Source: Bifidobacterium mizhiense (GTDB taxonomy: Bacteria; Actinomycetota; Actinomycetes; Actinomycetales; Bifidobacteriaceae). Taken from it: a DNA stretch of 64,000 nt. Every line of letters starts with the position of its first letter. Position 1 is the first letter of the stretch. A model generated the notes under the pieces. That model did not search any database, was not told the DNA's origin, and was given only the letters and a program-made list of their open reading frames with translations. Below are positions 24,992-30,114 of this stretch, one piece after another. The translations under genes were made by a program, and so were the position numbers. The stretch spans positions 124,001 through 188,000 of the forward strand of contig NZ_BPWE01000002.1 in NCBI RefSeq assembly GCF_020884755.1, written 5' to 3'.

Positions 24992-25999
24992 ATGGCGAAC
25001 CACCGTAGAGGGCGGATGAGTGCGGTCAAGGCTCTGACCAAGCGTCAGTGGCTGCGATTGGCTGCCGGTGTCACCGTCCTCGGCATGGTTATTGGCGCGG
25101 GCTTCGTCTCGCGCGACTTCTATACATCCACTGAGAGCTCGGCCAAGTCAGGCGTAACTTCCTACTCCGCTACCCAGAATCTGGGTACAGTGTCCCGTGG
25201 GAGCACCAGACAGGCTATCCGCAATGGTGCGGGCGGCGCCAACTCCGATACCTCCTACGTGAATGTGCAGATCAACGGAAAGAACAAGGTGGTGCTGGGC
25301 AACGGCTTCACCAATGTCAAATCGGTCCTGGAGGCCGGAGACATCACCCTGCAGCCGGGCGACCAGATTACCCCCTCACTGACCAGCCGGGTCAGTGAGA
25401 AGACCGTCATCCGCATCGACCGGGCCAACGCCCAGGTCAAGACGGACGAATCGCCCATCCCCTTCAACACCATCGAGGAGAAGACCGACTCCCTGCCGTC
25501 AGGCACCACCAAGGTCAAGACCGAGGGACAGAACGGTGTCATGGAGACCACCAGCCTGGTCACCGCAGCCGGCAACAAGCACCTGACCAGCAACATCTTC
25601 GCATCCTTCGTCAAGACCGTCCCCGTGGACAAGGTGATCCTGGTGGGCACCGGCGGTGGCACCCCTGCACAGTCCGGCTCGACCACCACCACGACCCCTG
25701 TAGGCGAAGCCCAGAGCATCGCCCATGATCTGGTCACCTCCCGAGGCTGGGGCGAAGACCAGTTCACCTGCCTGGTGCAGCTGTGGAACAAGGAGTCCGG
25801 CTGGCGGACCAACGCAGCCAACCCCTCAGGCGCCTATGGTATTCCCCAGGCATTGCCCGGCAGCAAGATGGCCTCGGCCGGCCCCAATTGGCAGACCGAT
25901 GCCCACACCCAGATCGTCTGGGGACTGGGCTACATCCAGGGCCGTTACGGGAATCCCTGTGGCGCGTGGGCCCAATCCCAGTCGTCCAACTGGTACTGA
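24992..25999 (+). CDS. Secreted G5-domain protein with transglycosylase-like C-terminus
   Basis: A 335-residue extracellular wall protein. One membrane helix or signal anchor at about 21-40 is followed by a DUF348/YabE-type ubiquitin-like domain (about 88-145), a G5 domain ending in VDKVILVGT (about 150-220), a Thr-rich linker, and a lysozyme-like domain (240-335) with the likely catalytic Glu in WNKESGW (268) and GAYGIPQALPGSKMASAG. The overall plan resembles resuscitation-promoting factors, but the C-terminus is closer to aggregation-promoting-factor/lytic transglycosylase domains. GAGGAG lies four bases before the ATG. A perfect terminator follows. Confidence 0.88.
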   Translation: MANHRRGRMSAVKALTKRQWLRLAAGVTVLGMVIGAGFVSRDFYTSTESSAKSGVTSYSATQNLGTVSRGSTRQAIRNGAGGANSDTSYVNVQINGKNKVVLGNGFTNVKSVLEAGDITLQPGDQITPSLTSRVSEKTVIRIDRANAQVKTDESPIPFNTIEEKTDSLPSGTTKVKTEGQNGVMETTSLVTAAGNKHLTSNIFASFVKTVPVDKVILVGTGGGTPAQSGSTTTTTPVGEAQSIAHDLVTSRGWGEDQFTCLVQLWNKESGWRTNAANPSGAYGIPQALPGSKMASAGPNWQTDAHTQIVWGLGYIQGRYGNPCGAWAQSQSSNWY

Positions 26000-26271: not shown

Positions 26272-29200
26272 ATGCAATCGTCATATAGGAATCGTGCATG
26301 CTGCGTAGCTTCTCTTGCAGCCATTATCGCCTCAGTGTTGATATTGGGAAACCTCTCGGGGATTGACCTGGCGCAGGCGGATGCAACCGCATCCCCGACA
26401 GCATCGCAAAGCACGGAAAATGAAGCTGAGGGGGTGACCCCTACTATACCTAGCTCAACCCAAGCTCCCCCTAATGCTCCAACGCCAACAGTAACTCAAA
26501 AGCTGGATTCCCCTATCCAAACAACACCTTCTCCCGCCTTTCCATCCCCCACTTCACTAGGCTCAGCAAGCCCTGCTCCTTCCACCCGATCGACAAGCCC
26601 CTGCCTAAATAATCAATGTTCGGTCACTTTTGACACGGCACAAGCTGACACAACGACCCCTGACACTCAGACCGTCCCTTCGGAAGGCCAGGCGAAACGT
26701 CCGACCGATCCCACCAGGCACGGGTACCTCTTTGACGGCTGGTTTATTGGCCAGGTAGCCTACGACTTCAACCAGCCCGTCACCAGCAACCTGAAGCTGA
26801 CCGCAAAATGGACAACCGGCGATGGCCATTGGTCCCTGGCACCTGCACATGGAGCTATATCGGGGGGCACCACCGTGACGGTAACTCCTCCGGCAACCCG
26901 GGGCATCAAATTCTCACAGATCACGTCAGGATCCACCCAGTCACTGGCCCTAGGCTCGGACGGCAACATCTATTCCTGGGGCAAAAACGCTTATGGTCAA
27001 CAGGGCGACGGCACAAACATCGATCACCAAGCCCCAATAAAAGTAGCCAAACCAGCCAATGTACCAGCAGGATTCATTTTCACGAAGGTAGACGCTGGTG
27101 ATCATTCAGCCCTTGCCATGGGTTCGGATGGCAACCTCTACACTTGGGGATTCAACGCTTCTGGACAGCTGGGCGATGGAACTACCGAAAACCGCAGCAG
27201 ACCTGCTCCGGTGAAAAAGCCGGATGGGGCCGCGCCTGGATTTACCTGGAAGCAGGCAAACACCAGGTGGGACCACACTGTGGCCTTGGGATCAGACGGC
27301 AATCTCTATGCATGGGGACTGAACTCATATGGACAACTCGGCAATACCAGCGTTCCGAGAGGCCCTAACAATCCAGCTGCATATAGCACTAAACCCGTCC
27401 CCGTCAGTAAGCCGGCGGGAATCACCCTTACCCGGGCGACCACGGGACGATACAGCTGCTTGGCCATGGGATCCGACGGAAAACTGTATGCCTGGGGATG
27501 GAACAGTTATGGGCGCCTGGGAGACGGCACCACAACAGATCGTTTGACGCCAACCCAAGTCCTTCAGCCCAATGGGGTCACGTTCTCGCAATTCAGCGTA
27601 GGAGCCGACTACAGTTTCGCCATCACTACGAATGGGGATCTTTACGGTTGGGGATGGAATGACAGCGGGCGCCTGGGAGACGGCACCACAACAGACAGGC
27701 ATGTACCTACGCTCATACCGCGCCCCGATGGGACACCTGCAGGATTCACCTGGAAGCAGGTCATGGGCAGGGACTACCACAGCATGGGCATCGGTTCAGA
27801 TGGCAATCTTTATATTTGGGGCGTCAACCGGTACGGCGAGCTGGGCTTTCCGGACGTACCCACCGGTGAGACCAGCACCGTCATCAGACCGCGGCCTGTG
27901 CAAAAACCGAAACCCTCAGTGGCCGGACAGGAAACCAGCTGGGTTCAGCTCTACGCTGGATGGGAGCAATCCTTAGCCCTAGGGTCAGACGGAAACCTGT
28001 ATACCTGGGGGTGGAACTGCGGGGGCCAACTAGGTGATCCGACCATTCCCACAGGTTACGACAACAGCAAAGCCAAGAGGCTGACACCAGGTCTGGCGGC
28101 CTTCCCGCTTACACCGGATCTTACTGCGGTCAAATTCGACCAAACACTGGGCAGCAATCTCAAAAAAGCAGGTACAAACTGGCAGGTGGTGACACCAGCT
28201 CATAGGAAGGGTCGAGTGGATACGGCCATCACCTGGAATCTCTATGGTCCGCAACCCGATGACATCCTGGATTACACCTATGACCCGCCCACCTATGTCA
28301 TTACTTTCGATAAGGCCGACGGCAGCCAGCCCAGCAGTCAGTCAGTCATCGAAGACCAGACGGCTTCCAGACCGGATCAAGACCCGATCCGACCTGGCTT
28401 CCTATTTGATGGCTGGTTCAACGGCGATGCGGCCTACGACTTTTCTTCCCCCGTCAAGGGTCCCATGAAACTGACAGCCCACTGGACGGCAGGCACCGGG
28501 CAATGGACCACCTCTCCCAAGCAGGGTCCTGACAGCGGTCAGACCAAGGTGACCCTGGTACCACCTGCAGTGCGGGGCATCAGGTTCAGCCAGGTCAGCG
28601 CCGGCGATGATCATTCATTGGCTCTCGGATCGGATGGAAACGTCTATTCCTGGGGTGCCAATAAATACGGACAGCTTGGCGATGGGACCACAACGGACCG
28701 CTTAACCCCGGTTCAGATTCCCAAGCCGACAGGCGTGAACCGATTCACACAGGTCAGTGCAGGAAAAGCCTTCTCATTGGCCTTGGATGACCAGGGCCAC
28801 GTCTGGGCATGGGGTCTTAACAGCTCCGGACAGCTGGGCAACAATACTGTTGCTACCAATGGCTCATCTGCATACAGCTCCAGCCCGATTCACGTGCAAG
28901 CCCCAAGCGGGATGACGGCGACAAACTTCACTCTCACTGGCATCAGTGCAGGAATCACTCATGTCCTCGCAGTAGACGGGCAGGGCAGAGCCTGGAGCTG
29001 GGGGTCCAATGAGTTCGGCAAACTGGGTGTCTCCCCTGACACTGTGGCGATGACAGGGATCACCACCAGACCCGTCCAGGTCACAACCCCGCAAGGCGAA
29101 ACGACGGGATTCCGCTATGCACAGGTCAGTGCGGGAGGCTCACATTCTCTGGCAACTGACACCCAGGGCCGTGCCTGGGGCTGGGGATCAAACCAGAACG

Positions 29201-30114
29201 GTGACCTGGGCAATACGAGCGATGTGGCGCTTAATGGCTACACCTTCACACCTGTCCAGGCCAAGCCGGGCACCAACCCGACAGGCGGCTTCAAGCCTGT
29301 TCAGATCATTGCCGGCAACGGCCGCTCCTCCGCCCTTGATGATCTGGGACGTCTATGGACCTGGGGCGGGAACAGCAATGGAGAGCTCGGCCTGGGCGAC
29401 ACCACCACAAGGACTGCCCCATCTCTGGTAGCCATGCCTGCAAACGTCAACACGTTCACGCAGTTGACAGGCAGCAGAGTTAGCGGCAATTCGCTGGCTC
29501 TGGACCAGAATGGAAACATCTGGGGCTGGGGTCAAAACTCAACAGGTATGCTGGGCACTGGAAGCACGGGCAGCCTGAACAAGCCTACAAAGATGGGCAA
29601 TCCATCAGGCATTGACCACTTCGTCAAGGTCAGCGCCGGCACTGGCCACACCCTGGCCATCGCCTCCAACGGCAGCACATTGGGGTGGGGAAACAACAGC
29701 CAAGGAAGGCTGGGAAACAACGCGACACAAACAACTTATTCTCCTGTCAACGTGCTCTTCCCCTTCAGACTCGGCACCCCGTCCGCAGTACAATTCGGAG
29801 GCACCTCAGGAACCAGCCTAAGCTCCACGGGGCAGAAGGACGGCGCCTGGACTGTGCTTACGCCGAACCACCAGGCCGGCGACACGACTGTCAGCATCGC
29901 TTGGACACTCAATGGGGCTCCACAACCCAACGATGAGACCAATGCCTTCCGTTTCATCCACTATGGCATCCTCCCCCTGACCGGAGAGGCAGGCATCCTA
30001 GTGACCATCCTAACCGGCTTGCTGGCCGCAGTCGCTGGCCTGGCCGCCAACCGGCAACGCCTTGAAGCACAAAGCACACAAGGCAGAAAAGCAGCCGCTC
30101 GGCACAAGCACTGA
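26272..30114 (+). CDS. LPXTG cell-wall-anchored protein with two seven-repeat RCC1 propellers
   Basis: A 1280-residue surface protein from the ATG at 26272 (AAGGGG upstream). Signal peptide 1-37; Ser/Thr/Pro stalk to about 110; InlB B-repeat-like domain 116-183; RCC1 repeats 211-611; a second B-repeat-like domain 674-739; RCC1 repeats 770-1166; LPLTG at 1234-1238, membrane helix and basic tail. Each RCC1 block has seven units of the form SLALGSDGNxYxWG, enough for one seven-bladed propeller. Segments flanking each block look like the two halves of an IPT/TIG domain: GGTTVTVTPP before, and AVKFD with VVTPAHRKGRVDTAITW after. It should be attached by a housekeeping sortase and bind a surface or host/plant ligand (inference). 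Its A/T content is higher than its neighbours', especially near the 5' end. Confidence 0.88.
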   Translation: MQSSYRNRACCVASLAAIIASVLILGNLSGIDLAQADATASPTASQSTENEAEGVTPTIPSSTQAPPNAPTPTVTQKLDSPIQTTPSPAFPSPTSLGSASPAPSTRSTSPCLNNQCSVTFDTAQADTTTPDTQTVPSEGQAKRPTDPTRHGYLFDGWFIGQVAYDFNQPVTSNLKLTAKWTTGDGHWSLAPAHGAISGGTTVTVTPPATRGIKFSQITSGSTQSLALGSDGNIYSWGKNAYGQQGDGTNIDHQAPIKVAKPANVPAGFIFTKVDAGDHSALAMGSDGNLYTWGFNASGQLGDGTTENRSRPAPVKKPDGAAPGFTWKQANTRWDHTVALGSDGNLYAWGLNSYGQLGNTSVPRGPNNPAAYSTKPVPVSKPAGITLTRATTGRYSCLAMGSDGKLYAWGWNSYGRLGDGTTTDRLTPTQVLQPNGVTFSQFSVGADYSFAITTNGDLYGWGWNDSGRLGDGTTTDRHVPTLIPRPDGTPAGFTWKQVMGRDYHSMGIGSDGNLYIWGVNRYGELGFPDVPTGETSTVIRPRPVQKPKPSVAGQETSWVQLYAGWEQSLALGSDGNLYTWGWNCGGQLGDPTIPTGYDNSKAKRLTPGLAAFPLTPDLTAVKFDQTLGSNLKKAGTNWQVVTPAHRKGRVDTAITWNLYGPQPDDILDYTYDPPTYVITFDKADGSQPSSQSVIEDQTASRPDQDPIRPGFLFDGWFNGDAAYDFSSPVKGPMKLTAHWTAGTGQWTTSPKQGPDSGQTKVTLVPPAVRGIRFSQVSAGDDHSLALGSDGNVYSWGANKYGQLGDGTTTDRLTPVQIPKPTGVNRFTQVSAGKAFSLALDDQGHVWAWGLNSSGQLGNNTVATNGSSAYSSSPIHVQAPSGMTATNFTLTGISAGITHVLAVDGQGRAWSWGSNEFGKLGVSPDTVAMTGITTRPVQVTTPQGETTGFRYAQVSAGGSHSLATDTQGRAWGWGSNQNGDLGNTSDVALNGYTFTPVQAKPGTNPTGGFKPVQIIAGNGRSSALDDLGRLWTWGGNSNGELGLGDTTTRTAPSLVAMPANVNTFTQLTGSRVSGNSLALDQNGNIWGWGQNSTGMLGTGSTGSLNKPTKMGNPSGIDHFVKVSAGTGHTLAIASNGSTLGWGNNSQGRLGNNATQTTYSPVNVLFPFRLGTPSAVQFGGTSGTSLSSTGQKDGAWTVLTPNHQAGDTTVSIAWTLNGAPQPNDETNAFRFIHYGILPLTGEAGILVTILTGLLAAVAGLAANRQRLEAQSTQGRKAAARHKH

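Follow-up and report, generated by a model that had tools for sequence, protein, structure and literature searches.

We show here that a gene in the 64,000-nucleotide stretch of Bifidobacterium mizhiense DNA analysed (hereafter the window) encodes a wall-anchored protein with two seven-bladed RCC1 propellers, each lying between segments that resemble the two halves of an IPT/TIG domain, and that the first of these propellers has been exchanged as a cassette among orthologues. Of these two results, the exchange at the window locus is firm, and the RCC1-in-TIG architecture is well supported at the level of the family but less so from the window protein alone. An earlier note on this DNA had interpreted the arrangement as a propeller inserted in a loop of a split TIG domain, an interpretation which our data support.

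The open reading frame consists of two copies of one module, in the order List_Bact_rpt repeat, first TIG half, seven-bladed RCC1 propeller and second TIG half, followed by an LPLTG anchor (Table 1). Both the position of this two-module frame and the repeated module order were borne out, and the InlB-like repeat described in the earlier note before each propeller corresponds to PF09479/TIGR02543. A Pfam scan of the window protein gave 15 RCC1 (PF00415) stretches and two Flg_new/List_Bact_rpt repeats, and tandem RCC1 repeats together with a seven-bladed propeller place it among the RCC1 propeller proteins. The hallmarks of a sortase-anchored surface protein, namely a signal peptide, LPLTG, a hydrophobic stretch and a basic tail, could all be located, in line with the LPXTG anchor first proposed; the Gram_pos_anchor Pfam model scored 11.4 bits at LPLTG, under its cut-off of 20. 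Many paralogues (L009-L017) carry LPxAG (LPKAG, LPRAG, LPHAG) instead of LPXTG. The genes flanking the window gene are conserved at 8 orthologous loci; its upstream neighbour (window positions 24992-25999) resembles an Rpf/G5-type secreted cell-wall enzyme, as judged by reading its sequence without a domain scan.

Table 1. Features of the RCC1 surface protein gene in the window (positions are those of the window)
Feature	Position	Strand	Basis
Gene for 1280-aa wall-anchored double RCC1-in-TIG protein	26272..30114	+	ORF; Shine-Dalgarno-like AAAGGGGA immediately 5' of ATG 26272; Pfam domains; conserved flanking genes
Putative signal peptide, about aa 1-37	26272..26382	+	Sequence: short basic N-terminus, hydrophobic stretch, A-x-A-like end
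Ser/Thr/Pro-rich linker, aa 38-113	26383..26610	+	From sequence
List_Bact_rpt (Flg_new) repeat 1, aa 114-180	26611..26811	+	PF09479, TIGR02543
Putative TIG 1 first half, aa 184-210, WSLAPAHGAISGGTTVTVTPP	26821..26901	+	Sub-threshold match (12.7 bits) of joined module 1 to TIG profile positions 5-22; paralogues stronger
RCC1 seven-bladed propeller 1, aa 211-612	26902..28107	+	PF00415; AlphaFold2 model, UVR8 superposition
Exchanged cassette (two deep alleles in the orthologue set), about aa 190-598	26839..28065	+	dS, quartet sites, breakpoint trace
Putative TIG 1 second half, aa 616-673	28117..28290	+	Member of alignment A3, E 1.8e-24 to A3 profile (built with the same sequence); paralogues match TIG 27-84
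List_Bact_rpt repeat 2, aa 674-738	28291..28485	+	PF09479, second stretch
Putative TIG 2 first half, aa 742-768	28495..28575	+	Aligned with module 1 and paralogues; AlphaFold2 strands, pLDDT 75-86; own Pfam TIG match: none
RCC1 seven-bladed propeller 2, aa 769-1165	28576..29766	+	PF00415, PF25390; AlphaFold2 model, UVR8 superposition
Putative TIG 2 second half, aa 1169-1232	29776..29967	+	A3 profile E 1.6e-23 (built with the same sequence); AlphaFold2 strands, pLDDT 64-86, last strand <50
LPLTG sortase signal, membrane stretch, basic tail	29971..30111	+	Sequence; weak Gram_pos_anchor match, aa 1234-1258

The N-terminal flank of each propeller follows the pattern W-x-[IL]-x-P-x2-G-x3-G-x-T-x-V-T-x-x-PP and the C-terminal flank the pattern V-x-F-[DG] ... 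[WS]-x-V-x-TP-x-H-x2-G-x-[VAT]-x-V-x-[VI]-x-W. These flanks were located on each side of both window propellers, as had been claimed, and bracket, with variations, the propellers of the further RCC1 genes that were read in this genome; given this recurrence, the pattern is not a product of chance. Pfam gave no TIG match in the intact window protein, nor did the NCBIfam whole-protein scan, indicating that a domain scan alone misses the split TIG. A search of the genome with the TIG profile (PF01833) yielded 19 matches, every one in RCC1 genes, of which 18 begin at profile position 27 or beyond and are located after the propeller (the second half), with the remaining one covering positions 6-22 and located before it (the first half). 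Several of these matches have E >0.1 and one alone reaches the curated cut-off, together with its in-frame neighbours; as the individual scores are mostly weak, it is the placement that carries weight and not any single score. The HMM comparison thus finds TIG similarity in both halves, and the parts of the profile that they cover are complementary (about 5-22 before the propeller, 27-84 after).

When the propeller was cut out and the TIG halves were fused, 3 of 9 modules from this genome rose above the PF01833 cut-off of 20.9 bits (E 2e-6, 2.8e-5 and 5.2e-5), with most others sub-threshold, and the best of them (E 2e-6) gave one continuous TIG match over positions 6-74. Joined halves from other genomes exceeded the cut-off in four of six cases (E 1.5e-8, this one from another family, 1.7e-5, 6.1e-5 and 1.1e-4), L121 falling below it and L144 giving no match. 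Joined module 1 of the window reached 12.7 bits vs. the cut-off of 20.9, in its first half only, and joined module 2 gave no TIG match. The split TIG is therefore upheld at the sequence level by several joined paralogues and relatives of the same layout, which score above the cut-off, but not by the window halves, which are sub-threshold or unmatched; these may be assigned to TIG, more weakly, by way of the aligned paralogues and relatives. With scrambled letters in place of the first half, the score was 15-16 bits instead of 24-28, showing that both halves contribute. With the halves in swapped order, the total score was about the same as in the right order (right vs. swapped: 28.1 vs. 24.1, 23.6 vs. 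24.0 and 24.5 vs. 25.0 bits) and was split over two separate stretches, so the HMM score does not establish that the halves are contiguous. A profile built from 12 joined sequences matched the IPT regions of Plexin-A1 (1.3e-5) and Plexin-A2 (2.9e-3), these being whole-sequence E-values with a weak best single domain in the top entry (i-E 0.13); a single joined sequence matched Plexin-A1 at 1.2e-4.

The swapped order scoring almost as high, and the second half often scoring alone, are what one would expect if the flanks were two separate small elements, i.e. a hairpin before the propeller and a partial Ig-like domain after it, that are TIG-like only and do not pack jointly. We regard this as unlikely, given that nearly every module read has the two halves flanking its propeller, that they cover complementary parts of one fold, and that they co-occur in other families, with the first half there at the mature N-terminus.

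Modeling with AlphaFold2 bears on the same question. Model 1 (aa 114-676) comprises seven four-stranded blades, with a pLDDT of about 90 or higher over most of the propeller and flanks mostly of low confidence (below pLDDT 50-70), and superposes on UVR8 (4dnv) with a Z of 52.0 and an rmsd of 2.4 over 369 aligned residues; model 2 (aa 734-1232) has a mean pLDDT of 85, with strands predicted in its flanks (N flank pLDDT 75-86, C flank 64-86 bar the last strand), and its residues 35-430 superpose on UVR8 with a Z of 54.2 and an rmsd of 1.7 over 363 aligned residues. The seven RCC1 units per module counted in the earlier note accordingly appear as seven four-stranded blades in module 1 and as a closed propeller in both modules. 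Because the UVR8 superposition covers the propeller from first to last strand, the ring is closed without the flanks, and in both models the complete propeller lies outside them. It is conceivable, in view of the flanks directly adjoining the ring closure, that they serve as additional strands clamping the propeller ring shut, with no Ig domain at all; we deem this highly improbable, as the seven blades superpose on UVR8 end to end without the flanks and a non-RCC1 insert, described below, has the same kind of flanks. Structure searches with both models returned propellers only, with no TIG in the lists, as would be the case where a single large domain takes up the whole list. Returning to the split TIG domain, we surmise that its two halves would pack into one Ig sheet, and that the duplicated unit may form the rigid display scaffold envisaged in the earlier note.

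The genome (2.09 Mb) harbors at least 150 RCC1 repeat matches and, in the regions read, about 25 RCC1 genes of the window type, many in tandem clusters; the host is a bee-gut Bifidobacterium, and relatives occur in Bifidobacterium, including B. asteroides and B. mellis. In about a dozen paralogues (four judged from their sequences, the rest by eye from the flanks), the first-module propeller is apparently without the RCC1 signature and the flanks are kept; L012:1703-5254, L016:1439-5053 and L017:3050-6577, for example, have no recognisable WG-x-N-x2-GQLG blades and both TIG flanks. Within the genus set, the TIG second-half profile is present in 22 of 27 genomes. Two genomes, G456 and G470 (1.9 and 2.3 Mb), have 62 and 68 matches to this profile, about double the number in the window's own genome. 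Used alone across the phylum, the second-half profile gave mostly matches without nearby RCC1 repeats, some spaced like ordinary tandem TIG domains, and among these loci a regex scan found a run of RCC1 blades in the window's own genome only; a profile combining the last blade with the second half had to be used, and its order-wide matches run on into the TIG half in a number of other families. Among the loci read, the succession of first half, propeller and second half was found at L142, L144, L146, L148 and L150, representing four families besides the window's, and also in Leucobacter (L022), so that the search for the split pattern elsewhere, proposed from the outset, places the RCC1-in-TIG layout in four or more additional families of this order. 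In a single-copy relative (L121, genome G460), the first TIG half is at the mature N-terminus and the List_Bact_rpt comes after the module and not before it, indicating that the split TIG goes with the propeller. In a sister genus (G014; L131 and L132), TIG halves surround, twice per protein and at the same loop, an unrelated domain, some 200-300 residues long and devoid of RCC1 repeats; the joined host TIG matches Pfam at E 1e-11, and the insert bears a weak likeness to the Sialidase N-terminal (concanavalin-like) domain (E 0.022) and may be LamG-like. RCC1 proteins on the viral contigs read had no TIG-like flanks.

To compare the locus among strains, orthologues with the same neighbour genes on both sides were examined segment by segment, with L018 and L165, identical over the segments compared, counted as one genome. 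Two deeply diverged alleles of propeller 1 (66% identity, dS about 1.6) were found, and these assort independently of the rest of the gene, which is 83-98% identical among orthologues. Between the window, L018 and L019 on one side and L020 and L021 on the other, dS is 1.56-1.73 in propeller 1 (three pairs computed), vs. 0.10-0.19 for the TIG 1 second half and 0.15-0.38 for propeller 2. In the comparison widened by four orthologues, L163 shares 95-98% nucleotide identity with the window and L162 in propeller 2, and in propeller 1 65-66% with these two and 95% with L164. Quartet sites group by allele in propeller 1 (278:2) and by background elsewhere (6:144), with a Fisher p of 3e-104 that is overstated as the sites are linked. 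The 5' breakpoint falls near aa 176-192, inside the first TIG half or immediately ahead of it, and the 3' breakpoint near aa 595-603, ahead of the second. The two alleles could in theory be hidden paralogues kept by differential loss and not exchanged blocks, considering that both are old (dS about 1.6) and that a search among the paralogue loci compared gave short 74-88% matches only and no donor; this is quite improbable, since at 8 of 8 loci orthology extends to the neighbouring genes, the framework and propeller 2, and the site patterns flip from 6:144 to 278:2 inside one gene. Whole-gene differential loss is insufficient for such a within-gene switch; block exchange is needed, though the block may have come from an ancient allele at this very locus.

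The exchange of the first propeller as a block suggests a plug-in system that varies the outward-facing part of the protein. Among other gene pairs of the main cluster, diverged propellers lie beside conserved segments in some and not in others, and in some pairs whole gene halves differ, implying that exchange is not always confined to the propeller. Propeller dN/dS is 0.10-0.18 over the whole segment, hence purifying selection dominates, with no sign of positive selection at the whole-segment level, and the position-wise differences between alleles revealed no clear single hypervariable face.

Taken as a whole, it seems fairly probable to us that the window protein is anchored in the wall and serves in binding, its propellers being exchangeable heads set in TIG sockets. 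Such a sortase-anchored protein would be built of modules, each with a List_Bact_rpt spacer and an Ig-like TIG socket, and an autonomous closed seven-bladed propeller would sit in the TIG loop between the strand GGTxVTxxPP and the strand VxF. With the first and last strands of the propeller predicted to be adjacent at ring closure, a single point could serve as entry and exit for both linkers. The variable head, presumably ligand-binding, would be the propeller, and the spacer/TIG framework, common to orthologues and about 25 paralogues, would supply the homology for recombination by which whole propellers may be swapped between strains while the socket stays. We infer homologous recombination as the mechanism of exchange, and also selection for variation; the likely function would be surface binding, with the bee gut, pollen glycans and neighbouring cells as candidate targets. 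Many paralogues and allele exchange might be expected of proteins that escape recognition, and a doubtful though appreciable chance remains with evasion or decoy (avoidance of phage or host defence) in place of adhesion. As for binding heads in TIG sockets, we are evenly divided on a broader proposition, that the TIG domain is a general plug-in socket of actinobacterial surface proteins, accepting RCC1 propellers, degenerate propellers and a LamG-like domain in the same loop, with the plug passed between strains of bee bifidobacteria as a cassette and alternative heads persisting over long periods at a single locus.

A closed propeller whose ends lie side by side, set into a single loop of an Ig-like socket, would be a design found in nature for exchanging binding heads while the bacterial scaffold stays fixed; a large surface-protein family of a bee-gut symbiont could thereby diversify with its anchoring framework left intact. 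The two propeller-1 alleles, in closely similar backgrounds, constitute a testable unit for what these proteins bind, and the propeller-in-TIG arrangement offers a scaffold for protein engineering.

RCC1 surface proteins of bifidobacteria are described in two papers, by Bottacini et al. in 2012 (PMC3447821) and Ellegaard et al. in 2015 (PMC4449606). In the portions available to us, the family is known from the Bifidobacterium asteroides group with 7-24 genes per genome, 19 RCC1 plus Listeria-Bacteroides copies are given for B. asteroides PRL2011 (PMC3447821, 2012), and recombination and diversification of RCC1 surface proteins were already proposed in 2015 (PMC4449606). The window protein, with its List_Bact_rpt before each RCC1 domain, C-terminal LPXTG and multigene family, is of the same type, for which RCC1 repeats, a Listeria-Bacteroides repeat before each, LPXTG and tandem clusters were described; those portions differ from our account in having neither TIG halves nor whole-propeller exchange at a socket. 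"TIG" is absent from the 2015 text (PMC4449606), and in the available part of the 2012 text (PMC3447821) two word-start matches to it do not refer to the domain; within the open-access literature, we found no paper joining TIG with RCC1, or TIG with insertion, that describes the arrangement. Of the arrangement, which the earlier note did not know as a described one, the combination of RCC1, Listeria-Bacteroides repeat and LPXTG was described in 2012 and 2015, but the split TIG is unmentioned in the available portions of either paper.

Among other known systems, the IPT/TIG domain (PF01833), e.g. that of plexins, is matched by both flanks in complementary parts, and the joined halves align with Plexin-A1, but here about 400 residues would separate the GGTxVTxx strand from the VxF strand. 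The window propellers share their fold with the seven-bladed RCC1/UVR8 propeller (PF00415, UVR8 4dnv) but would be extracellular, anchored to the wall and lodged within a host domain. Ligands outside the cell are bound by means of a propeller in the lectins CV39L and PLL, as may be the case in the window protein; these lectins belong, however, to another repeat family, and the fold match is weaker (CV39L Z 21.6, rmsd 4.5, 306 aligned).
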